From: a virus
DNA: 38,787 bases
Virus record (IMG/VR): IMGVR_UViG_3300043395_003362
Span: 1-38,787 of that record
Reading direction: 5' to 3' (one strand)
Shown here piece after piece: positions 4,358-38,787 of this stretch. The position numbers and the translations under genes were made by a program. Under the pieces are notes generated by a model that saw only the letters and a program-made list of their open reading frames with translations, was not told the DNA's origin and ran no database searches. The first letter of the stretch is position 1, and each line of letters starts with the position of its first letter.

Positions 4358-5032
4358 ATGCCCCGCGCGTACCCGACACGCCCGGCGCAGGCGCGCGTGG
4401 TGGCGGCGCCGCTGGTCGAAGATCCGACCGTGGCGCGTGCCATTGCGCAGGTGTCAGACGCAGTCGCCGAGGAACAGCGCAACCCGATCATTCCGCGCTC
4501 GGGCGTTATGGGTGAACTCTTTTACCGCCAGCGGAATGGGACGCTAGCCGCCTTGGCCCCGGGGGCCGAGGACGAGCAACTCCTGGTCGTGGACAACGTT
4601 CCCGCCTGGCGGAGCGCCGCGGTGCATGGCGACTACGTGATGACCACTGCGGGCAGCTCGCTGACGCAGCTCGCAGCCAACTGGGCCTATGGGATCCTCG
4701 GGTCCTATGGGCTCATCACGTCAACTGCCGCGACCGTTGCTGCGTGGTCGCCGCCGCTCATCGTGGGAGATCGGGCGAAGTCGCTCACGCTTCTGCTCGG
4801 GGGAGACAGCGCCGTCGATGCTACAATTACCGTGATCCATCGGGCCGCGAATGGAACGAACGTATCGCTTCAGAGCACCACGTTCTCCAACGTGGGGCCC
4901 GTGTCGCCGCTGTCATACGACTTCTCCGACTTCACGCTCGCGCCTGGTGAGTCGATCGTGGTTGGTGTCGCTGCGAATGCTGCGAACCTAACGGTATACA
5001 CGCTCCGCCTTACCTACGATCACCCAGCCTGA
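4358..5032 (+). CDS. structural protein with shared C-terminal beta domain
   Basis: A 224-residue virion protein of unknown role. Residues 1-50 are helical and basic; the middle includes GELFYRQRNGTL, typical of fibre-like proteins. Residues 118-224 closely resemble the C-terminal domain of the next gene: both read G-I/L-x-x-T-A-A-T-x-A-x-W, then PL-x-x-GDR-x-K, then TTFSN, and end in L-T-Y/F-D-x-P. This points to a duplicated beta-sandwich module, possibly for trimerisation or surface binding. The gene lies between adaptor and nozzle, where head-fibre or tail-fibre genes are sometimes found. Confidence 0.6.
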   Translation: MPRAYPTRPAQARVVAAPLVEDPTVARAIAQVSDAVAEEQRNPIIPRSGVMGELFYRQRNGTLAALAPGAEDEQLLVVDNVPAWRSAAVHGDYVMTTAGSSLTQLAANWAYGILGSYGLITSTAATVAAWSPPLIVGDRAKSLTLLLGGDSAVDATITVIHRAANGTNVSLQSTTFSNVGPVSPLSYDFSDFTLAPGESIVVGVAANAANLTVYTLRLTYDHPA

Positions 5033-5042
5033 GGACGCCGCC

Positions 5043-6230
5043 ATGCCATTGCCGCCTAGCACGTACATGTCCCTCGTTCTCCCGACGCCCGGCGCCGATT
5101 CGGGAGTGTGGGATGACTACCTGAACGCGGCACTCGGCGGCCTCGTCGACGCGCACACGCACATCCCCGGCGAAGGGCGCCAGGTGCCGACGGCGGGCAT
5201 CAACATCAACGAGGACCTGTCCATCGGGAGCAACCGTCTCACGTTCGTGAACGGCACGGCGTACAACAACCTCCCGGCAGTACTCACGACGGGAGCGCGT
5301 GAAACGTTCGTCTCTGGCGGCAACCTGTACTACCGCAACAACTCGGGCCAGAACGTACGCATCACGCTCGGCTCGACGATCGACTTCACGGGATTCGGGG
5401 GCATCGGCGGCGATTACGCAACGGTCGGCGCGCTCCTCCAGTACGTCGACTCGGGCGACAAGTACCAGTTCCTCCAGGAGGATGTTCTCGGGGTCCGGCA
5501 CTTCGCGAAGAACGAATCGGCCGACGTCATCCTGCACCCATTCCACGCTGCGGGCGCGCCTGGCGACGTCGTACCAGCGACGACAATCAAAGCGAACGCA
5601 TCGCTCGCGGCTTCGTACTCCCTCACGTTGCCGACGGGGCTGCCGGCCGGGTCTACGGTGGTCAAGGTCGACAATACCGGCGCATTGTCGTTCCCCGACA
5701 ACGCCGGCAATCTCACCGTCGACGACCTTACGGTCGAAGGGGCGGCGACGTTCGAGGCTAACGCGACGTTTGAGTCCACAGCGACATTTGAGCAGGACGC
5801 GACGTTTCAGGCCGATATCAAGCATGGAGATCGTGTTCTCGCCGTTACGTCCTACGCGTTCCAGCTCGGAACCGCCGCCGACTGGAACGTCCTGGGGCTC
5901 GGCATCATTAATACGACGGCGGCCACTTTCGCGTATTGGACATCCCCGCTTCTCACCGGCGACCGCGTTAAGACGATCACGTTTCGCATGGAGGGGAACA
6001 TCGGAACGACCGGCGATGTCAACGCAACGGCGTTCCTAGTCAGCGCGACAGGCACGACGAACATCATCGGCAGCACAACGTTTTCAAACTTGCCCGTCGC
6101 GGATGACGATTACGTTCTCGATCTAACCGACTCCACCCTTGCGGCCGGCGAGACCGTGTTTTTCTCGTTGGAGTTCACCGAGTCCGGCATGGGCCTCTAC
6201 AACGCTCGCCTAACGTTTGACCGCCCCTAG
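5043..6230 (+). CDS. fibre-like structural protein
   Basis: A 395-residue virion protein. The N-terminal 60 residues (GVWDDYLNAALGGLVDAHTH and following) resemble the attachment end of many phage fibre or structural proteins, where a W-x-x-x-L-N and D-x-H-x-H pattern is common. Residues 222-258 hold LTVDDLTVEGAATF and then four hexapeptide repeats (ATFEAN, ATFEST, ATFEQD, ATFQAD), as expected for a triple-stranded beta stalk. Residues 287-395 are the beta domain shared with the preceding gene. It may be a head or tail fibre; receptor or partner is unknown. Confidence 0.6.
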   Translation: MPLPPSTYMSLVLPTPGADSGVWDDYLNAALGGLVDAHTHIPGEGRQVPTAGININEDLSIGSNRLTFVNGTAYNNLPAVLTTGARETFVSGGNLYYRNNSGQNVRITLGSTIDFTGFGGIGGDYATVGALLQYVDSGDKYQFLQEDVLGVRHFAKNESADVILHPFHAAGAPGDVVPATTIKANASLAASYSLTLPTGLPAGSTVVKVDNTGALSFPDNAGNLTVDDLTVEGAATFEANATFESTATFEQDATFQADIKHGDRVLAVTSYAFQLGTAADWNVLGLGIINTTAATFAYWTSPLLTGDRVKTITFRMEGNIGTTGDVNATAFLVSATGTTNIIGSTTFSNLPVADDDYVLDLTDSTLAAGETVFFSLEFTESGMGLYNARLTFDRP

Positions 6231-6233
6231 ACC

Positions 6234-9200
6234 ATGGCCCTGAGCGAAATCGCCATACCGATCGCCTTCGCCGGCGGCGTCGACACGAAGGGGGATCCAA
6301 AAACGATCATCCCGGCGAAGCTACTCGACTTGCAGAACGCGACGTTTACGCGTTCGGGCACTCTGTCGAAGCGCACCGGCTACGACGCGCTCTCGCGCCT
6401 CGTCGACGGCCAGGATGATCCGTATGTGTCGCCGCACTCCATCGCCGCCCGCGGCGAGGAGCTCGTCCTGTTCGCCGACGATCACCTGCTGAGCTACCGC
6501 GAGTCATCGGACACGTGGAGCAAGGTCGGTTACGCGTATCCGATCACCGACACCGAGCGCGACATCGCGGCGACGTCGTCCGACCAGTCGCTCGCCGACT
6601 TGGCGACGCTTGATGGCATCACGGTCGTGGCGTGGGAGGACTCGCGGGGGGGCGTGTGGTACTCGATCGCAGAAAGCGCAACGGGGCGTCTCTTGCGCGC
6701 CCCGGGACAACTCGATGCCGCCGGCGAGCGCCCACGGGTCGTGGTGTGCGGTGACCGCCTCCATGTGTATTACGTGGTCGCATCTGCGTCGCAGATCCGC
6801 GTGCTGGTCGTAAATCCGTCGACATATGACGCCAACGCGACGACGGCCATTCTGGTCGACGACATCAACGCCGCGGTGCCGAACTATGACGCCATGACGC
6901 TACCGCCGCTCCTCGGCGCCGGCGCGTGCATTGTGTGGATCTTAGCGACGGGGGGGTACCGGGTTGGGTACGTCGACCCGTCGGGAGTGATCGGCGGCGC
7001 CGGCATCGGCTGGCCGTCGGCGGCGTCGTGGCCAACGGATGCGATCGATGGCCCGGTGTCGATCGCCGCGGGTTCGCAGGCCGGCATCGATGAGCCGTTC
7101 CTGGCGGTGTTCTGGGGCGACGGGTTCGATCTGAAATACCGCTTCCTACAGGCCGCGTCGCTTTACACGAGCATCGCCAACGGCACGCCGCTCACACGCA
7201 CGAGCACGTATGCGCGGATCGCAACGGCGACGCGTATAAACACTGCGGCGGCGAAATTCTGCGTGAACGTGTGGGCCGAGGAGGAAGCGACGGCGGGCAT
7301 CGCCAACGATCCGGACAACCGCGTGTGGTTCGCCACCGTGCAGATCGACGGCGGCGATTCCGTGAGCTCCGTGCCCCTCCGAGGTCATGGCCTCGTGAGC
7401 CGCGGGTTCACCCACAATAACCGGTGCTACGCGTGCGTCGTGCACCCGGTGCCGTTCTTCCCGTACGTGGCGCTTGTGAACAATCACATCGAGGACACGG
7501 GGACCCCAATCTATAGCGCCGCCGGTCGGTTCTGCGTCGGCACGTCCGATGGCCTTCCGACCCGGCGCCATTTGCCGAGCATGAGCGCCATCGCCGGGGG
7601 TTTTCAGTTCGCCGCGCTCGCGCGCGAGCAAGTGGACGCCAATCCGAGCGGCCAACAGTTCACAGAGACCGGCATCCGGCAGATCCGTCTGATGATGGAT
7701 GACCCGAATGCGCTCCAGTCGGTCACCTGGGCAACGGACCTCATCATCGCCGGCGCGCTCCCGATGCGTTACGACGGCGATACTATCGCCGAGTTCTCGT
7801 TCCTCACGGCACCCGACGATATCGCTCCGGCGGTGGCGTCCACGACCGGCGGCGATGGGCTCACGCTCCTGGGGACGTACCTCTATCGGTGCTGCTATGA
7901 GGAGGTCGACGCGCAAGGGCTCGTCCATCCGGGCGGCATGTCGATCGACCTCGCCGTGCAACTCACCGGCACCGAGAACACGGTGACGATCCAGATCCCC
8001 ACGTACCGCCTCACGGCCAAGCGTGAGTCATCGGTGCGCATCGGCGTGTTTCGGACCGAGGCAAACGACACCGCGGGCGATGTGCCGGCGTTTTACCGCG
8101 TGACGTCGCTCAACCCGTCGAGCACCACGGGTCCCAACCGGTACGTGCCGAATGACACGACCGTTGACACGGTCGAGTTCGTCGACCTGTTGCCGGACCT
8201 GGCACTCCTCGAACGGGAGCGCGCGTACACAAACGAAGGCGTTCTCAGTAACGACCCGGCGCCGCTTGGGTCGGTGATCGTAAGCGGTAAAGATCGGATC
8301 TTTTGGTCGGATCCGACCGATCCGAATCTCGTCCGTTATAGCCAAACGCGACGTGACGGCTACGGCCCCGAGTCCTCGTTCGACCTATCGCTGCGCATCG
8401 ACCAATCCGGCGGCGACATCGGTGCGATGGCCATCCTCGACGATGCGTTGTTCGTGTTCGAGGAGCGCGCGGTTCTATTCGTGTTAGGGCCGGGCCCGCT
8501 CGCGAACCCCGATGCGGCGCCGCAGATCGGGTTCTCGCCGCCGGTCGAACTGCCGACGGATGCGGAGGGTTGCACGCGTCCGCGTAGCGTGGCGCAGACC
8601 AGTTCGGTCATCCTGTACCAAACGCCCGACGGCGCAATCAAACAGATCGACCGCTCGCGCCAAGTCTCGTACATCGGCGCCCCCGTCGAAGCATACAACG
8701 GACAGACCGTGACCTCCGCCGACGAGATTCCGGGCAAAGAGCAGGTCATCTTTCTGACCTCGTCGGGCCGGACGCTGCTCTATGACCACTTCCACGGCCA
8801 GTGGTCGACGTACACGAACCACACCGGCCTCGATGCTACCGTCGTCGGTGAGACGTATCACTACGTGCGATCGAACGCGTCGGACTACCGCGTATTCCGC
8901 GCGGACTCGGCGCTCTACCTCGACGCCGGCGTTTCGTACTCCATGTACATTGAGACCGCGTGGATCAAGTTCGCGCAGTACCTGCAAGGTTTGCAGAAGG
9001 TCTGGTACGCGCTGATCTTGGGCACGTACATCAGCCCGCATCAGTTGGTCGTGCGCATCGGGATCAACTACGAGAACAACTGGGGCCAGCCGTACGTCAT
9101 CGACGTTGACGCGGACCACGCGCCCACCTATTACGGCGAGGGCGGCTACGGCGTCGGCGTCTACGGCGGCGACCCGGACACCGTCTACCAGCAGAGGATC

Positions 9201-18608: not shown

Positions 18609-19669
18609 GCACGACCCCGACCCTTGACCCGATCACTGCCGCCACCATTACGGCCGCGCTCGAAACGTCCGGCCAGTGCACCCTCGGGCCCGGCATGATC
18701 GAGATCGACGAGCCCATCCTGATTAAGGGCCCGTGCTCGCTCATCGGCGCCGGGTTCGGCACGCGCCTTCACGCGTCGGGCGACTTCCCGATCATCGACA
18801 TGAGCCAGGCGCCGACAATCCCCGTCGGTGTCTCGATCAGTGGGCTGCGTCTTACGAGGCAGAACACGCAGAACGGCCCCGGCGGTAACTCGCAATCGCA
18901 AGGGATTGTGCTGTGGGGCCAGTTCGTCACGGTGCGCGAGGTCTGGATCGAGGATTGTCTAACAGGAATCCAGTTTGCGACAGGTCTAGGGGTGAGCTCG
19001 CAGGTTCGCCTCGATGGGATCAACATCTCCAACATTCTCGCGAACGCGGTCTTCACAGGGATCGACGTCGACGAAGCGACCGACGTGACGCTATTCAACT
19101 GCGCTCCCGACGCAAAGCGGAACTATTGCCGACTTAACATCGGCAACTTCGCAACCGACCTGCATGGCTCGCTCGAGGTCTTTCGCACACTCCCGGCCGG
19201 CGCGGATGGCAGCCGCTACCTGACCGACCTCGCCGGCGACAACCCGACTTCTACGTTTGCTCCTGACAACCAACCCGACATCCCGCGCAATGTCACCGTC
19301 GACTTCGATCCGGATTGGGACGGCGGCGACATCACGGTGATCGGGAAGGACCAATTCGGCCTTGGCATTTTCGAGGTGCTGCCGTCGACCCCCGGCGCCT
19401 TTGTCGCCGGCGAGAAAACGTTCGCCACAATCTCGGAGATCCAAAAATCCGCCGTGGGCGCCGACCCGGCGGTCTGCAACGTCGGGATGGGCGTCAGCAT
19501 CGGCGTCGCCAAGCGCATGATCGCTGAAAGTCCGAATAGTATGCTGTTCGTCGACGACATCGGGACGGGGATCACGAGCGTTAGCCGCGTTTACAGCTCG
19601 TTCATTAGCGACGAGGCACCGAACGGGACCCGGCTATTCAAGTTCTTTACGCCTGTGATCGGCAGCTAG
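18605..19669 (+). CDS. beta-helix tail protein (putative second spike)
   Basis: A 354-residue protein. Residues 25-150 have the beginnings of a pectate-lyase-like beta-helix (GPCSLIGAGFGTRLHASG, VGVSISGLRLTRQN, VTVREVWIEDCLTG). The remainder is mixed beta with VTVDFDPDWDGGDITVIG near residue 230. It lacks the MAGYN adaptor of the two preceding genes. It is the last gene of the rightward virion block and stops at a CTAG sequence whose other strand reads as the stop of a lysin gene remnant. Confidence 0.6.
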   Translation: MSTTPTLDPITAATITAALETSGQCTLGPGMIEIDEPILIKGPCSLIGAGFGTRLHASGDFPIIDMSQAPTIPVGVSISGLRLTRQNTQNGPGGNSQSQGIVLWGQFVTVREVWIEDCLTGIQFATGLGVSSQVRLDGINISNILANAVFTGIDVDEATDVTLFNCAPDAKRNYCRLNIGNFATDLHGSLEVFRTLPAGADGSRYLTDLAGDNPTSTFAPDNQPDIPRNVTVDFDPDWDGGDITVIGKDQFGLGIFEVLPSTPGAFVAGEKTFATISEIQKSAVGADPAVCNVGMGVSIGVAKRMIAESPNSMLFVDDIGTGITSVSRVYSSFISDEAPNGTRLFKFFTPVIGS

Positions 19670-19771
19670 GTCGCGTGCATCTCGATCACCCGCGCACGCG
19701 GTAGCGATGTCCCCATCGCCACGCGCAATGACTCACGATCTACCGCGCGCACGCTGCGACCCCGGCGACCG
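19665..19771. repeat. 107-bp direct repeat, copy 1: remnant of endolysin 3' end
   Basis: It matches 20405-20511 with nine mismatches over 107 bases. On the minus strand it reads as the last 34 codons of the endolysin gene including its TAG stop. Eight of nine differences are silent and one changes Tyr to His. That bias means the two copies diverged while both were coding, so copy 1 probably came by recombination with a related phage and is not a decayed local duplicate. Similarity ends just after 19771. Confidence 0.9.
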
Positions 19772-20206: not shown

Positions 20207-20409
20207 CCGGCTACGGCTACGGCGACGGCTACGGCTACGGCTACGGCGACGGCTCCGGCGACGGCGACGGCTACGGCTACGGCTACGGCTACGGCGACGG
20301 CTCCGGCGACGGCTCCGGCTACGGCTACGGCTACGGCTACGGCGACGGCTCCGGCTACGGCTACGGCGACGGCTACGGCGACGGCTCCGGCTCCGGCTGC
20401 CACCGCTAG
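20194..20409 (+). CDS. Gly-Tyr/Asp/Ser repeat protein
   Basis: A 71-residue protein (MDQVAGYGYGDGYGYGYG and on), almost wholly Gly alternating with Tyr, Asp or Ser, ending SGSGCHR. The upstream ATG at 20179 would add five residues. The DNA is a tandem array of GGCTAC, GGCGAC and GGCTCC units (about 20209-20398). It overlaps the end of the DUF6948-like gene by 13 bases, so the two are probably made together. Low complexity with aromatic and acidic side chains predicts disorder or an adhesive, phase-separating or metal-binding role; none is established. Confidence 0.6.
   Translation: MDQVAGYGYGDGYGYGYGDGSGDGDGYGYGYGYGDGSGDGSGYGYGYGYGDGSGYGYGDGYGDGSGSGCHR
20209..20398. repeat. GGCTAC/GGCGAC/GGCTCC hexamer array
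   Basis: About 190 bases of tandem six-base units, each GGC followed by TAC, GAC or TCC, with no spacers. It encodes the Gly-Tyr/Asp/Ser repeat. The other frames read as runs of Leu/Arg or Ala/Val and are artefacts of the repeat. Such arrays are prone to slippage, so length may vary between isolates. Confidence 0.9.
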
Positions 20410-20511
20410 GTCGCGTACATCTCGATCACGCGTGCGCGTGGTAGCGACGTTCCCATTGCCACGCGCAGTGACTCACGATCTACCGCGCGCACGCTGCGGC
20501 CCCGGCGACCG
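20405..20511. repeat. 107-bp direct repeat, copy 2: 3' end of intact endolysin gene
   Basis: This is the intact partner of the repeat at 19665-19771 and forms the C-terminal 34 codons of the endolysin gene on the minus strand. At its left edge CTAG serves as the stop codon for both converging genes, the Gly-Tyr repeat gene and the endolysin. The same arrangement occurs at copy 1. Confidence 0.9.
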
Positions 20512-29597: not shown

Positions 29598-29882
29598 GGC
29601 CGGTAGCGTACCCCTGGGGTGCGACACCCAAGGGATGGCGTAGATCGGTCCGGATTGCTGTTCACTTCCGGAGCCAAATTGTGGACTCTGAGCGCGGGAT
29701 GGGGGAGAACCGCGTGCGCAGCGCATTCGAAGACCACCGGGCTGCAACCCGGTTGTCCTCAGCCTGGATCGAGATCCAGGCCGATTGTCTGCGGAAGGAC
29801 CGTCATCCTTGCGACAACTAAAGACCGTTTATCACGCGCCCAGGGCGCTATCAAGTTTCTTCGCCACCGACGAGAAACCGGC
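29598..29882. promoter_or_regulatory. divergent intergenic region with dyads
   Basis: A 285-base gap between nuclease and primase starts. Visible dyads: CCTGGGGTG-cga-CACCCAAGG (29613-29633, one mismatch), ACCGGG-ctgcaa-CCCGGT (29736-29753), and CCTGGATC-ga-GATCCAGG (29763-29780, perfect). GGAAGGA lies at 29793-29799 without an in-frame start close behind. The primase frame is open through here but shows no convincing coding signal. The dyads could be operators, terminators or RNA hairpins. No clear tRNA is present. Confidence 0.4.
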
Positions 29883-30935
29883 GTGAAAACGCCGGACTAT
29901 ATCGAGCGAATGCGGGGGCGTCGTGTGATCGACGTCGCGCGAATGTTGGGGCACGAGGTGCGCGAGTCGGCTGGCAAGCCGTCGATCGTTGGTTGCCCGA
30001 ATCCGAAATGCCGGGCCGCCAAGCGGCACACCAAGAGCGGCGACAAGCGCGGAGCGATCTTCGTCCTCCCCGATGGCACTGGGTGGTGGTGCGTCCAATG
30101 CGAGGAGCGTGGAGATTCGATCGCGTTCGTTGCGCTCGACCTCGATGGAACACGTGATCCGATCGGGCCCCAAGCGCGCGAGTGGATGATCGCATACACG
30201 GGGGCGGAGCGCGTCGCCGAGCGTGAGAAGCCGCTACCGAAGTACGTCGCCGCACCAACGCCGGCGCCGCGATATCCGCCCACGGAGGAGGTACTCGAGC
30301 GGTGGCAGTCGACGCAGTTCGTCACGCGCCTGAAACTGTGGACCGACGAAGAATGGCGCGAAGCGTACCCGCTCCACGAGTCGCAGATCACGACGGCAGA
30401 AAAGTGGTTGTTGTCCAAACGCATCAACCCAACGGCGGTACGCGAGCGCGATTTGGCGCGCGTCTGCTGCCGACTGCACACATGGGGTCGTCTCATCGTG
30501 CCGCTCTTCGATGTCGAGGGCGTGATGCGGTCGATGATCTACCGCAGCGTTAAAGGCGAGGAGCCGAAGTCGCTATTCATCAAGGGCTATGAGCGACGCG
30601 GCCTGTGTTTCGGCGTGATTCCGACGACGCCGACGAAGCTCATCATCGTCGAGGGTGAGAAGAAGTACCTCCAGCACGTCGCCAATGAAACGCCGCTTCC
30701 CGACGGAACATCGTGCATCGGGATCGAGAGCGGCGCGTGGACGGATGCGCACGCCGCGCGCCTCGCCGACGGCTCGTCGGTAATCGTACGGACAGATCCG
30801 GACAAGCAAGGCGCGTCCTACGCGACGCACATCCGGCGAACGCTTGAAGACAGAGTTAATGCCGGAACCATCCGGCTTGGTTACCAGGGGCTCACTTTCA
30901 ACCGACAAACAGGTCGGGTGGAGGTGCGCAAGTGA
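29883..30935 (+). CDS. DNA primase with zinc ribbon and TOPRIM-like motifs
   Basis: A 350-residue protein if read from GTG 29883; ATG 29910 is an alternative and the true start is uncertain because the frame is open further upstream. Residues 35-80 hold a zinc ribbon (GCPNPKC and WWCVQC). Near residues 260-310 are KLIIVEGEKK and VIVRTDPDKQG, the Glu and D-x-D of a TOPRIM site. It would lay primers for host polymerase at the fork opened by the helicase downstream. Its TGA overlaps the helicase GTG by four bases. Confidence 0.75.
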   Translation: MKTPDYIERMRGRRVIDVARMLGHEVRESAGKPSIVGCPNPKCRAAKRHTKSGDKRGAIFVLPDGTGWWCVQCEERGDSIAFVALDLDGTRDPIGPQAREWMIAYTGAERVAEREKPLPKYVAAPTPAPRYPPTEEVLERWQSTQFVTRLKLWTDEEWREAYPLHESQITTAEKWLLSKRINPTAVRERDLARVCCRLHTWGRLIVPLFDVEGVMRSMIYRSVKGEEPKSLFIKGYERRGLCFGVIPTTPTKLIIVEGEKKYLQHVANETPLPDGTSCIGIESGAWTDAHAARLADGSSVIVRTDPDKQGASYATHIRRTLEDRVNAGTIRLGYQGLTFNRQTGRVEVRK

Positions 30936-32206
30936 GCGAGGGACCGATGGAGCCAGTGGATGACATCATCGAGGCAACGGGCGAGCTTCCCGGCGAGGAC
31001 AACCTGGAATGGGAAGCGCCGAAGCCGCCAAGTCTCAAGATCGTCGACGCGCCAGAGGCGCCCCCGCTTAACTGGTATCAACCCGATACCGCCGATTTGC
31101 TGATCGGAAATTCAGAACTGCCGTGGGTGAGCTTTCACCTCAGCGGATTCGAGATATCCCGCCTGCGTGTCGGGACGGCCGCGGTGATCACAGCGCCCAC
31201 CGGCGCTGGCAAGTCGAGCTTGGCGATTCAGCTCGCCGCTGAGCACGCGCGCAGAGTCGGCCCAGTTGTGTATCTTTCGCTCGAGCTCGACGCCGATGTC
31301 GTGTCCGCGCGCATCGTAGGTCAAGAGTGCGCCGCCTCATGGGAAGGAGTCCTTAGGCTGTCCGAGGTCTCGCGCGAGGACGTGCATCGCGTCCTCGGCG
31401 AACTGCACCGCATGTACACGCTGAGCGAAGGCGATGCCACGCTCGAAAAGACCGAGCGCGCCCTCGGCATCTTGCGCGATCGGTGTCCAGGCGAACCGCC
31501 ACTCGTCGTGATCGATTACCTCCAGCTGCTCGAAAGCTCCGAAAGAGAGGAACGCACCCGCGTCTCCCGGATCGCCGAGCAGGTCCGGCAGTTCACCGTG
31601 CGGCACAAGGTGGTGACGCTTGCGGTCGCACAGACCTCGCGCGGCAACGCCAAGAGTTTGCGAGATGGCGAGCTGTTCGGCGCCGACACGACGTCGACGG
31701 CCGCGGAGTCGTCCCAGATCGAGAAGATGGCGACGCGGACATTCTCGATCGGCGGCGTACGGGAGCGAGATGATGGCTGCTTCGATATCGACTTAAATAC
31801 CGGGAAGTCCCGTTTCGGCGGCGGGGATCAGGTCTGGCCGGCTATCTACAACGGCCGCACGGGCCGCTGGTCCGTCATGGGTGCGGCGTCGTCCGCGACG
31901 CAGGTGCGGGAGGAGCGCAGAGAAAAGAAGACGGACGCGCGCGGGCTCGGCACCGCCAGGGCGATCCAAGCCGAGCTAGAGCAGTCTCCGGAGCCACGGT
32001 CCCGGGCCGCGCTCGCATTGGCCCTCGGCTTTCGAAAAGCGGACGTATTGACGGCAGTTCGTTCTCTCGTTCAGGACCCGAGTTCAGGTGTCGTCGAGGT
32101 ACGAGGATCTCGCACAGGCGGTGCTTGGCCCCTGTGGACTAAGAAAAATGCTGATACAAATGGCCTGGACATCGTGCCGCTAGGCGCCTCCGAGTTCACG
32201 GACTAG
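30932..32206 (+). CDS. DnaB-like replicative helicase
   Basis: A 424-residue RecA-fold helicase. Walker A APTGAGKSS is at 88-96; VVYLSLELD at 112-120 corresponds to the motif holding the catalytic Glu; Walker B is VVIDYLQLL with Asp195; LAVAQTSRGNAKSLRDG follows. The N-terminal DnaB domain is replaced by about 60 acidic, probably disordered residues, as in phage RepA-type and AAA_25 helicases. Residues 340-400 look like a winged helix. It is coupled to the primase and is followed by a repeat array that may be an origin. Confidence 0.8.
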   Translation: MSEGPMEPVDDIIEATGELPGEDNLEWEAPKPPSLKIVDAPEAPPLNWYQPDTADLLIGNSELPWVSFHLSGFEISRLRVGTAAVITAPTGAGKSSLAIQLAAEHARRVGPVVYLSLELDADVVSARIVGQECAASWEGVLRLSEVSREDVHRVLGELHRMYTLSEGDATLEKTERALGILRDRCPGEPPLVVIDYLQLLESSEREERTRVSRIAEQVRQFTVRHKVVTLAVAQTSRGNAKSLRDGELFGADTTSTAAESSQIEKMATRTFSIGGVRERDDGCFDIDLNTGKSRFGGGDQVWPAIYNGRTGRWSVMGAASSATQVREERREKKTDARGLGTARAIQAELEQSPEPRSRAALALALGFRKADVLTAVRSLVQDPSSGVVEVRGSRTGGAWPLWTKKNADTNGLDIVPLGASEFTD

Positions 32207-32381
32207 CTTATTCACAGGACCGGTTCCCACCGGTTCCGGACCGGTACGGGAACCACCGTCCGGACCGGTTCCCGGACCTATATAGGTCCGGAACCGGAAC
32301 CGGTCTCCCGCGGAACCGAAAAACCTCCGGAACCGGTCTAGCCTGGCGTCGCCCATCACACCCCTGCGCTAAGGTTCAGTT
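32207..32381. promoter_or_regulatory. symmetric ACCGGTTCC repeat array, origin-like
   Basis: The gap between helicase and SSB holds ACCGGTTCC at 32219, 32229 and 32264, a variant at 32240, then a perfect 20-bp palindrome at 32272-32291 with TATATA at its centre, then inverse units GGAACCGG(T) at 32290, 32296, 32312 (variant) and 32329. Units point one way left of the centre and the other way to the right. Such ordered repeats with an AT core are typical of protein-bound origins, but an operator for SSB transcription is also possible. Confidence 0.65.
32272..32291. repeat. perfect 20-bp palindrome
   Basis: CCGGACCTAT then ATAGGTCCGG reads the same on both strands. The symmetry extends outward through CCGGTT on the left and AACCGG on the right with a single extra C, giving over 30 bases of cruciform-forming sequence. 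The central CTATATAG is the most AT-rich spot in the array. Confidence 0.9.
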
Positions 32382-32816
32382 GTGGACAAGAACAATGTGG
32401 AATTGGTTGGGACAGTAGACCAGCAGCCAAGCTGTAAAGAGGTCGGCAGCGGGCGCAAGCTGACGACCCTCCTGGTGCGCACGGTTGACCGCTGGGAAGC
32501 GCGGGACGGTCGCCAGGGAGAAAGGGTGGCCGTGATTCCGGTGACGGCCTGGGGCAATTTAGGCGCAGAGGCGATGAACCGCCTCCGGGCCGGCGATGGG
32601 GTCCGGATTGAGGGCCGGATCGGCAGCAAGGCGTACGAGCGGGATGGCGAGACCCGGTACTTCCTGGAGGTCACGGCCAGCCGGATTGAACCGCTGGCCA
32701 TGGCACCCGACCCGCGGCAGCGGTCTATCCCGGGCACCGATCGACCGCCCCCGTCCAAGCACACGACCCGCTATGCAGGCTCGATGCACGGCGATGACAG
32801 TGACATCCCGTTTTGA
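32382..32816 (+). CDS. ssb: single-stranded DNA-binding protein
   Basis: A 144-residue SSB from GTG 32382, with AAGG eight bases before. Residues 4-105 form the OB fold (NVELVGTVDQQPSCKEVGSG, LTTLLVRTVDRWE, VAVIPVTAWGNLGAEAMNRL, DGVRIEGRIGSKAYERDGET, YFLEVTASRIEPL). A Pro/Arg linker follows, and the acidic tip DDSDIPF matches the conserved end with which bacterial SSBs recruit partner proteins. It completes a primase-helicase-SSB set. Confidence 0.9.
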   Translation: MDKNNVELVGTVDQQPSCKEVGSGRKLTTLLVRTVDRWEARDGRQGERVAVIPVTAWGNLGAEAMNRLRAGDGVRIEGRIGSKAYERDGETRYFLEVTASRIEPLAMAPDPRQRSIPGTDRPPPSKHTTRYAGSMHGDDSDIPF

Positions 32817-32823
32817 TAGCCGC

Positions 32824-32850
32824 CTTTAATCCGGCGTCGCCCGGTTAAAG
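32824..32850. other. hairpin just after SSB
   Basis: CTTTAA-t-CCGG, loop CGTCGC, then CCGG-TTAAAG: ten pairs with one bulged T, starting eight bases after the SSB stop. There is no T-run after it, so it is not a classic terminator; it may protect the SSB message end or be the first element of the structured region that follows. Confidence 0.6.
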
Positions 32851-32854
32851 CGAT

Positions 32855-33019
32855 CAGCCGTTTGCTTTAAGGTGACCTTGGGTCTAGCCCACGAGGTCGC
32901 CGTAGGCGGCTGAAGTGCCCCGGGCGGGACCGCGGCAGGAGGCACGGTCCAGCTTCGGGTAATCAGTCCGAAGCGTGCCCGGGGCGCGCGCATCTTGCCC
33001 ACAAGATCGGCGTGCGCGC
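32855..33019. ncRNA. candidate structured noncoding element
   Basis: Three stems follow one another almost without spacer. Arm A: CAGCCG/CGGCTG (32855-32860, 32907-32912) enclosing GACCTTGGG paired with CCCA-cg-AGGTC. Arm B is a three-way junction: GCCCCGGGC/GCCCGGGGC (32917-32925, 32977-32985), with inner stems GGACCG/CGGTCC and GCTTCGG/CCGAAGC joined by one- or two-base links. Arm C: GCGCGC and ATCTTG paired with CAAGAT and GCGCGC (32986-33019). All are perfect or nearly so. It could be an RNA, or a DNA structure such as a packaging or single-strand initiation site. The strand cannot be fixed. Confidence 0.5.
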
Positions 33020-33081
33020 AAACCGGCGCCCCGATGTTGTGGGTTGACTGGCGCTCGAGTGCCGCCCGGCGGTAGTGGCGT

Positions 33082-33197
33082 CCACGATACCCCCGCCGTT
33101 TCGGTGCCCAATCGTGGCGGTCTGGGGAGGGACAATCTCGATGCACAGTTTGTCCCCCTCGGGTGGGACACATTGCGCGCGGACCTGTCCTCCCCAG
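33082..33197. promoter_or_regulatory. further dyads, including an attenuator-like set
   Basis: CCACGAT/ATCGTGG (33082-33088, 33111-33117) is followed by four segments that can pair in alternatives: GGGACAA (33129-33135), TTGTCCC (33150-33156), GGGACA (33165-33170), and TGTCC (33186-33190). Segments 1 and 4 also extend to a 12-pair stem with one bulge (33122-33134, 33186-33197). Mutually exclusive pairing is typical of attenuators and switches. No T-run terminator is visible after it. Confidence 0.45.
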
Positions 33198-33280
33198 CAC
33201 AAACCGACGCAGAAGAATAGCCCCCTGAACACTCTGCATTCTTCTACGTTGTCAGAGTCTTCGCGCAACCTGCGTTGATC
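33198..33280. other. leader of the adenine methyltransferase gene
   Basis: It holds an 8-bp perfect dyad AGAAGAAT/ATTCTTCT (33211-33218, 33238-33245) with a 19-base loop. No convincing promoter boxes and no good ribosome-binding site are seen before the methyltransferase start. Reading frames across 32817-33280 on both strands lack start signals and coding bias, so no gene is called. Confidence 0.4.
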
Positions 33281-33772
33281 ATGGGGGAATCGGCGGACGT
33301 CAATCCGTACGGCGGGGCAGATCCGGACGCGCGTCAGCACTGGTGCACGCCGAAATGGCTCGCAAACCTGATCGGACCCGTCGACCTCGACCCGTGTTCC
33401 AACGAGCGCAGCCATATCCAGGCGCGCATCAAGTGGCAGCCGCCGCGCGACGCGCTCGCGATCCGGACGTTTCCCACGGGCTGGACGATCTACTGCAATC
33501 CGCCGTACGGCCGCGGCGAGGTGGAACGCTGGGTCGCCTCGTTTTCGCGCGCGAACTTCCTCTTCCTGCTTCGATTCGATCCGAGCACCATATGGTTCGC
33601 GCGACTCATGAAGCATCGGCCGTACGTGTGGTTTCCTCGCGGTCGCCGCATTGCGTTCGAGCCACCCCCCGGCGTCGCGGCGAGCTCGAACCCGTTCCCG
33701 CACGCACTGTTTTGCAAGAGCGAGCCGAACCTCGCGCTACGCTCGGCGGGCTACGTGTTCCGCTGGGCGTAG
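33281..33772 (+). CDS. phage DNA N6-adenine methyltransferase
   Basis: A 163-residue protein from ATG 33281 (TTG 33275 is possible). It matches the phage Dam family: HWCTPKWLANLIGPVDLDPC near residues 20-40, with SNERSHIQ after it, and the catalytic motif YCNPPYGRGEVERW near 71-84. It would methylate adenine in phage DNA to evade restriction or regulate transcription. It lies alone between the structured region and the packaging genes. Confidence 0.8.
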   Translation: MGESADVNPYGGADPDARQHWCTPKWLANLIGPVDLDPCSNERSHIQARIKWQPPRDALAIRTFPTGWTIYCNPPYGRGEVERWVASFSRANFLFLLRFDPSTIWFARLMKHRPYVWFPRGRRIAFEPPPGVAASSNPFPHALFCKSEPNLALRSAGYVFRWA

Positions 33773-37448: not shown

Positions 37449-38787
37449 GTGTCTGATCCACAGTGGTGGCAGGCGAAACGGGGATCGCCGGAGCTAGCCT
37501 CCGACGTCTGGGGACGTGTGTCCCAAATGCGCCTCGGTCGCCGCGTAACGAACGGCTGGGACCTGATCTATGAGGGCATCTATCAGGGCCAGCAAGTAAC
37601 GGCGGGCCTCGTCGGGCCGACAGGCTTTGAGGCCCCGGCGCTGATGCAGAACATGGCGTCGCGTGCTGCGCCAGCCAGCATCAACATCACGAAGGCGAAG
37701 ATCGACGCCATCACGTCGCGCATGAGCAAGCACCGGCCGTATCCGGTGATCAGCGCCGAGGATGCGGGATGGACCGAGAAACGGTTCGCACGGCGTACCT
37801 CCTCGGTACTGCGCACAAAACTCGGCCAAGCGACGAACGAGTACCAACGATCACTCGTGAAGCGCGACGCGCTCATTCGCGGTACCGGCGTCATGAAGGT
37901 CGTGCGTACCGAGCGCAACGGCGTCTATGACGTTGGGATCGAGCGCTGTGTACGCTCGGAAGTCCTCGTCGGTTCCCGCGAAGCCTATTGGGGATGCCCC
38001 CGGCAGATGTTCCAGATCCGGACCTACCCGATGGAGGTCCTTCGCGCGTGTTACCCGGAGGCGAAGCGGCAGATCGAAGATCAGGCCACACGCGCCGGGT
38101 TCTCCGACGACGGCTGGTATGAGTGGGGTGATGCGTGGGTCGATAACTCGCAGCAGGTAAAGGTCGTCGAGGCGTGGCACCTGCCATCGGGTTACGGAAC
38201 CAAGGACGGGCGCCACGTCATTACGATCGCCGACAAGGTGCTCCTGGACGAGCCGTGGACGCGGCAGCGTTTCCCTTTTGCGTTCCTCCACTGGACGCCG
38301 CCGATCCACGGTCTATTCGGCTCGGGCCTCGTAGCGGACCTGTGTGGCCCACAAGCCAAGATCAACGACGTCGTGCGCGACATCCAGGAGGCGCTGTTCT
38401 ACGGGGCGCAGCTTACGGTGTTCGTGCCGCGGCAGAGCAAGATCAACAAGGACCACCTGCGCAGCAGGCATCCCAAGATCGTCGAGTACGAGGGTGCGCT
38501 CCCGCAATACGTGGCGCCACTCCCCGTGTCGCCGCAGTTGTTCCAGTTTCTCGATTGGCTCCTCAACATCTGCGACGACCTATCGGGCCTGTCGAGGGAC
38601 TTCCAATCGGGTAATACGCAATTGGGTGCCAACGCATCGGGCCGTGCGCAGATCGTCCTCGACGACATTCAGAGCGACCGCTTCGCGCTCTTTCAGTTGC
38701 ACGACTCGCTCAGCATGGTCGACGTCGGCGCGCTCGTAATCGACGAGGCGCGCGCCATCGCGGCCGAGTGTCCCAAGAGCGAGCAGG
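37449..38787 (+). CDS. portal protein, N-terminal part (continues at base 1)
   Basis: Portal protein forms the dodecameric ring at the capsid vertex through which DNA is packaged and ejected, and to which the short tail attaches. The frame opens with GTG at 37449 (MSDPQWWQAKRGSPEL), runs open to the window end and resumes at base 2, giving 645 residues, a normal size for podovirus portals. Seen: a segment reading PFAFLHWTPP, then GLFGSGLVADLCGP and INDVVRDIQEAL, matching the conserved core of P22-like portals. It follows the large terminase and one 88-residue gene, the usual terminase-portal order. GTG is used because the only upstream in-frame ATG (37431) is followed at once by TGA; no strong ribosome-binding site is visible. 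Confidence 0.9.
   Translation, partial: MSDPQWWQAKRGSPELASDVWGRVSQMRLGRRVTNGWDLIYEGIYQGQQVTAGLVGPTGFEAPALMQNMASRAAPASINITKAKIDAITSRMSKHRPYPVISAEDAGWTEKRFARRTSSVLRTKLGQATNEYQRSLVKRDALIRGTGVMKVVRTERNGVYDVGIERCVRSEVLVGSREAYWGCPRQMFQIRTYPMEVLRACYPEAKRQIEDQATRAGFSDDGWYEWGDAWVDNSQQVKVVEAWHLPSGYGTKDGRHVITIADKVLLDEPWTRQRFPFAFLHWTPPIHGLFGSGLVADLCGPQAKINDVVRDIQEALFYGAQLTVFVPRQSKINKDHLRSRHPKIVEYEGALPQYVAPLPVSPQLFQFLDWLLNICDDLSGLSRDFQSGNTQLGANASGRAQIVLDDIQSDRFALFQLHDSLSMVDVGALVIDEARAIAAECPKSEQ
38579..38787. repeat. terminal overlap, right copy
   Basis: Right-hand copy of the 209-bp contig-end overlap. It matches bases 1-209 except for C at 38660 (T at 82). Joining the ends restores one continuous portal gene of 645 codons. 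The single silent difference suggests population variation in the assembled sample, or an assembly error. Confidence 0.9.

Follow-up and report, generated by a model that had tools for sequence, protein, structure and literature searches.

Directly after the SSB gene of an uncultivated phage lies a gene-free stretch, island b (32817-33019), which folds beyond chance into a four-part chain of stems built around a compact three-way junction. At a probability of roughly 40%, we propose that island b belongs to an extended replication-origin region and acts there as folded single-stranded DNA, as a single-strand initiation structure. A second branched stretch, island a (32207-32360), lies 0.5 kb away behind the helicase gene and is probably the replication origin itself, read by the helicase as in P4 alpha and pRN1.

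The window analyzed is the whole virus contig, record IMGVR_UViG_3300043395_003362 (38,787 nt). An exact 209-bp direct repeat at its ends (1-209 = 38579-38787) means that the map is either circular (~38.6 kb) or terminally redundant. On the + strand, a primase gene (29763-30935, PHROG 47) is followed by the gene for a DnaB-like replicative helicase (30932-32206; Pfam DnaB_C, PHROG 19), the gap with island a, the SSB gene (32382-32816; Pfam SSB, E 1e-17, DDSDIPF tail intact), the gap with island b (32817-33274), a Dam-like DNA adenine methyltransferase gene (33275-33772; Pfam Dam, PHROG 111), and later the large terminase gene, 2.5 kb from island b. ERF and PD-(D/E)XK recombination proteins are also encoded (Pfam). 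The remainder of the second gap (33020-33274) contains weaker inverted repeats, for example at 33207-33249, by repeat and fold analysis. Elsewhere in the genome, an array of 12-bp units (GGCTACGGCTAC/GGCGAC) at 20207-20398 adjoins a duplicated 107-nt segment (19665-19771 and 20405-20511, 91% identity), with a GC-skew minimum nearby (20.8 kb).

The core of island b is the three-way junction at 32917-32985, which we checked base by base. Its 9-bp closing stem pairs GCCCCGGGC (32917-32925) with GCCCGGGGC (32977-32985) and holds a 6-bp arm (GGACCG, 32927-32932, with CGGTCC, 32945-32950) and a 7-bp arm (GCTTCGG, 32952-32958, with CCGAAGC, 32968-32974). The joints between stems are G, A and GT, and all 22 pairs of the junction are Watson-Crick. 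This is the arrangement described in the initial annotation, which had also placed a hairpin ahead of the junction; that hairpin (hairpin 1, 32824-32850) is present in the fold prediction with a single bulged base. The description of the whole chain as perfect stems holds for the junction, but hairpin 2 (32854-32913), with a 12-bp outer stem, needs G-U pairs on the + strand, and the last arm, hairpin 4 (32984-33019, from the fold scan), has two bases (32984-32985) in common with the closing stem. Because the G-U pairs of hairpin 2 are lost on the - strand, it is more stable on the + strand (-37 kcal/mol vs. -24 kcal/mol). Summed over island b, the gap between strands is -8.5 kcal/mol, which is not significant against the genome spread (sd 11.1). 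We therefore rejected strand preference as proof of an RNA; DNA and RNA cannot be told apart by this asymmetry. In the left part of island b, two folds compete: hairpins 1 and 2, with their G-U pairs, and an alternative fold (32818-32911), preferred with DNA energies, in which an 8-bp, entirely Watson-Crick stem (AGCCGCCT, 32818-32825, with AGGCGGCT, 32904-32911) closes over three arms. The three-way junction is present in every predicted fold, and RNA and DNA folds of island b are alike on either strand.

So much nested pairing had been thought unlikely to arise by chance, and comparison with dinucleotide shuffles bore this out: folded as RNA, 32855-33019 has a z of -5.81, with 0 of 200 shuffles as good. 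Over 32815-33025, z is -5.40 on the + strand and -4.38 on the - strand with RNA energies, and -5.93 and -5.01 for the two strands with DNA energies. When the whole genome was scanned in 160-nt windows, the most extreme window began at 32841. The second most extreme (1841-2000, z -5.06) falls at a putative scaffold/capsid gene junction. Compact three-way junctions, defined by a closing stem of at least 8 bp and arms of at least 6 bp, all Watson-Crick, occur once in this genome, at this site; 200 shuffled genomes and 12 related phage genomes contained no example. No gene overlaps island b, in agreement with the initial annotation. The frames that cross it have GC2 of 0.57-0.72 and GC3 of 0.62-0.69, compared with 0.46-0.54 and 0.74-0.84 in the genes of this phage, and they gave no Pfam or PHROG match.

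Has island b been seen in other phages? Searches through the SSB, helicase, terminase and capsid proteins returned no homologue of it among the matches listed, and a DNA similarity search of phage records gave no match. Sequence like island b is absent from all eight helicase relatives described below and from the other SSB loci examined, and a search of bacterial genomes by capsid and helicase found no prophages. We thus have no homologue of island b in which paired changes keep the stems. The phage is nearly an orphan: among the matches listed, relatives of its SSB are only ~25-37% identical, and there is no SSB match in 13 related records, several of which are fragments. A structure after the SSB gene is not a general phage feature either, as a comparable fold occurs at one of 81 other SSB loci. 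That one (L141, 3226-3291), in a different phage fragment whose SSB gene is immediately followed by a 16-bp hairpin with another nested inside it, is a loose parallel and is not homologous. Within the genome, island b and the right flank of island a have 9-10-mers in common, in a number reached by 0.9% of other windows. By 7-mer repeat count island b is ordinary, with no repeated word of the kind found in island a, and on this ground we rejected island b as another word-repeat island.

Searches for known RNA classes were negative. Using Rfam 15 at the gathering cut-off, there were no matches in the whole 38,787-nt window and none in the relatives; sub-threshold matches were weak and mostly on island a. 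One of these, to the DUF3268 RNA at 32218-32344 (E 0.0065, 26.7 bits vs. 65.3), was set aside because it is an effect of the island a repeats. ARAGORN found no tRNA or tmRNA, no intrinsic terminator (a GC stem followed by a T run) occurs in 32150-33350, and no promoter-like site matched in the island b region. These results bear on the possibility of a structured RNA at island b, which could be a small RNA or act in cis on the processing, stability or translation control of a polycistronic SSB-methyltransferase message. Lying between co-directional genes, island b would be transcribed, its folding as RNA is far outside the shuffled range, hairpin 2 has G-U pairs on the + strand that are lost on the other, and the two competing folds could form a switch. 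However, the difference between strands lies inside the genome spread, there is neither an Rfam match nor a promoter- or terminator-like site, and homologues with paired changes were not found, so we regard an RNA function as unlikely. The initial annotation had offered a noncoding RNA, a packaging structure and a single-strand initiation site as readings. The last of these fits the replication setting (primase, helicase and SSB upstream, and island a), while no positive evidence emerged for an RNA and no support for packaging.

Island a folds into branches around a central 20-nt perfect palindrome, CCGGACCTATATAGGTCCGG (32272-32291), and contains the words GGTTCC/GGAACC in both orientations, with eight copies in 32207-32381. 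Its 120-nt window has a z of -4.8 and ranks first in the genome. These fold residuals were computed with RNA energies, taken as a proxy for the potential to pair, and we used a fold scan because ranking by 7-mer repeats is weak in GC-rich genomes with coding repeats. By going from the capsid to related phages, and from these to helicase alignments, we obtained eight more phages whose helicase is related to this one: G005, G007, G030 (whose helicase region is copied in L091/L115), G032 (L117), G033 (L118), G034 (L119), G035 (L120) and G036 (L122). Each of the nine phages has its genome's strongest fold island immediately after the helicase gene; in G035 a second site is equally strong. The 120-nt z values of these post-helicase islands are -6.2 in G005, -6.5 in G007, -7.8 in G030, and -5.2, -4.2, -6.0, -4.0 and -6.2 in the other five. 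The islands are located at 6600-6800 in L086, 4780-4950 in L087, 6120-6300 in L093, 5689-5890 in L117, 6059-6230 in L118, 6105-6265 in L119, 6111-6320 in L120 and 804-970 in L122.

The sequences of these islands are divergent, but their position is kept, and so is a common plan in which a central hairpin is surrounded by a word particular to each phage, repeated in both orientations. The hairpin tip reads like CCC-YTWTA-GGG in several of the nine phages, and in the alignment the palindrome CCGGACCTATATAGGTCCGG corresponds to the relatives' hairpins of CCCYTWTAGGG type. The word has a GGTTCC core in this phage, L117 and L122; it is GGTACTTTCCC in L118, GTCCGGACG in L119 and GGTACC in G005, with weaker words in G007, G030 and L120. 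For most phages the words are nearly absent elsewhere in the genome, most clearly in this phage, L117, L118, L119 and L122. The island falls within an open reading frame in two relatives, namely in the C-terminal extension of the helicase in L087 (G007; 4795-4930) and in the N-terminal extension of the methyltransferase in L118 (6055-6230), which favors a DNA element. A gene similar to the methyltransferase gene of the present phage comes directly after the island in L118 (ORF 6055-6756). Among the replication genes of L086 (G005) there are also four copies of a short frame with a DLFFDLDPAALLVAWDAACEGGWWPLP-like start (4435-4701, 6298-6600, 6818-7207 and 7776-8033), and every copy continues into tandem repeats rich in serine and arginine. 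Four capsid relatives that yielded no helicase of this kind, several relatives being fragments, have no leading island of this type. GC skew was rejected as proof of an origin: its extremes (20.8 and 34.8 kb) fall near the island and not at it, and the pattern is inconsistent across relatives.

A candidate reader of the words is the helicase itself. The C-terminal part of the protein (~31934-32190) is predicted to form a winged helix, with an AlphaFold2 pLDDT of 89-95 over most of the domain. When this model was submitted to Foldseek, the best matches were mostly winged-helix DNA-binding proteins (MarR, ArsR), none of them below E 0.001. Across the nine phages, the more identical the start of the recognition helix, the more similar the islands tend to be in 6-mers (Mantel r 0.48, p 0.008, n=9), whereas identity over the whole C-terminal region shows no such correlation (Mantel r -0.02). 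The motif R[KR]xD at the start of the recognition helix occurs in this phage, L117 and L122, exactly the three with GGTTCC words (8, 7 and 8 copies, respectively, and none in the other six phages). We treat this correlation as a supported lead and not as proof, since the sample is small, the idea arose from inspecting the words in the same data and we ran several variants of the test, with p 0.08 for the weakest of those on the recognition helix. Two cultured phages have a related helicase that lacks the winged helix, and no leading island follows it (ranks 22 and 271). A helicase loader and a separate RepA-like initiator are annotated in Dropshot. Taken together, the position, the words, the predicted winged helix, its correlation with the words and the lack of an island behind helicases without the domain suggest that island a is probably the origin and bound by the helicase.

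Several known origins combine similar elements. In pRN1, a stem-loop needed for replication lies directly downstream of the gene for a winged-helix replication protein (PMC4234260). Both pRN1/BIP-1 and the present phages have a large palindromic structure directly 3' of a gene for a helicase with a C-terminal winged helix, with structure and position kept while the sequence changes (PMC4234260). In pRN1/BIP-1, however, an archaeo-eukaryotic primase and an SF3 helicase form one protein, and there is one long stem-loop; here there are a DnaB_C helicase and a PHROG 47 primase, and often several arms with repeated words. Such a structure directly 3' of the replication gene is found as island a here and in the eight relatives, while island b is separated from the helicase gene by the SSB gene. 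In phage P4, as outlined in PMC4234260, a winged helix linked to the helicase of alpha binds repeats at the origin, and the primase is of the TOPRIM kind, features that resemble those found or predicted here. In that account P4 alpha is a single protein, whereas our phage has separate primase and helicase and the binding is predicted. Multiple copies of a word beside the gene, as in P4, are found in island a (eight) and not in island b, and the winged helix of the putative initiator is a predicted structure.

For island b, the closer parallels are sites at which stem-loops form in single-stranded DNA. RSF1010 has iterons plus the ssiA/ssiB stem-loops (PMC4234260), and the layout of its oriV, with repeats in one place and separate priming stem-loops adjacent, matches that of islands a and b. 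RSF1010 differs in using three separate proteins; the chain of island b has four parts, one of them a three-way junction, and priming at island b is putative. In G4ori, three adjacent stem-loops in SSB-coated DNA place the primase (PMC6783573). G4 is a single-stranded DNA phage that uses host DnaG, whereas ours is a double-stranded DNA phage, and we claim no sequence match. Adjacent stem-loops in single-stranded DNA, as in these two systems, are predicted for island b, with DNA folding beyond the shuffles on both strands.

The course of events that we infer would start with recognition of the repeated words of island a by the C-terminal winged helix of the helicase, behind its own gene. The helicase would then assemble at island a and unwind rightward through the SSB gene. 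Once single-stranded, island b could adopt a set of fixed arms from which SSB is excluded and on which the phage primase or helicase is held, allowing priming to start. This role for island b gains from the replication genes directly upstream and from the proximity of island a, and we also count the DNA-energy folds and the 9-10-mers shared with the flank of island a in its favor. The support for island a does not carry over to island b, because b is found in no relative and has no repeated words. The eight other phages manage with island a alone, which counts against b as part of the origin.

A different DNA function, whether in starting packaging, in recombining DNA or resolving its branched forms, or as a barrier that separates the replication module from the packaging module, would suit the location of island b between replication and terminase genes, its palindromes and junctions, typical of such sites, and the recombination proteins that the phage encodes. 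Yet the terminase gene is 2.5 kb off, the 209-bp terminal repeat is elsewhere and nothing specific for packaging was found, and we consider such a function improbable. That island b is a functionless leftover of the arrival of the SSB gene, for instance the remains of a mobile element or a former copy of the origin, would agree with the lack of an SSB match in the 13 related records and with L118, which has helicase, island and methyltransferase but neither SSB nor island b, but is quite improbable, as decay should erode stems and those of the junction are perfect.

To our knowledge, the replication origins of most uncultivated phages are not known. For nine phages, the probable origin is named here by its constant position and fold signal combined with a reader domain in the helicase. 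Our tentative picture is of a lineage of uncultivated phages whose origin may be a branched DNA island behind a DnaB-type helicase with its own winged-helix reader and no separate initiator or loader, with word and recognition helix changing together; this phage may have added island b after a newly gained SSB gene. If so, a DnaB-type helicase would itself select where it starts, no separate initiator being needed, and the three-way junction beside the SSB gene would be a candidate counterpart, in a double-stranded DNA phage, of single-strand initiation sites.
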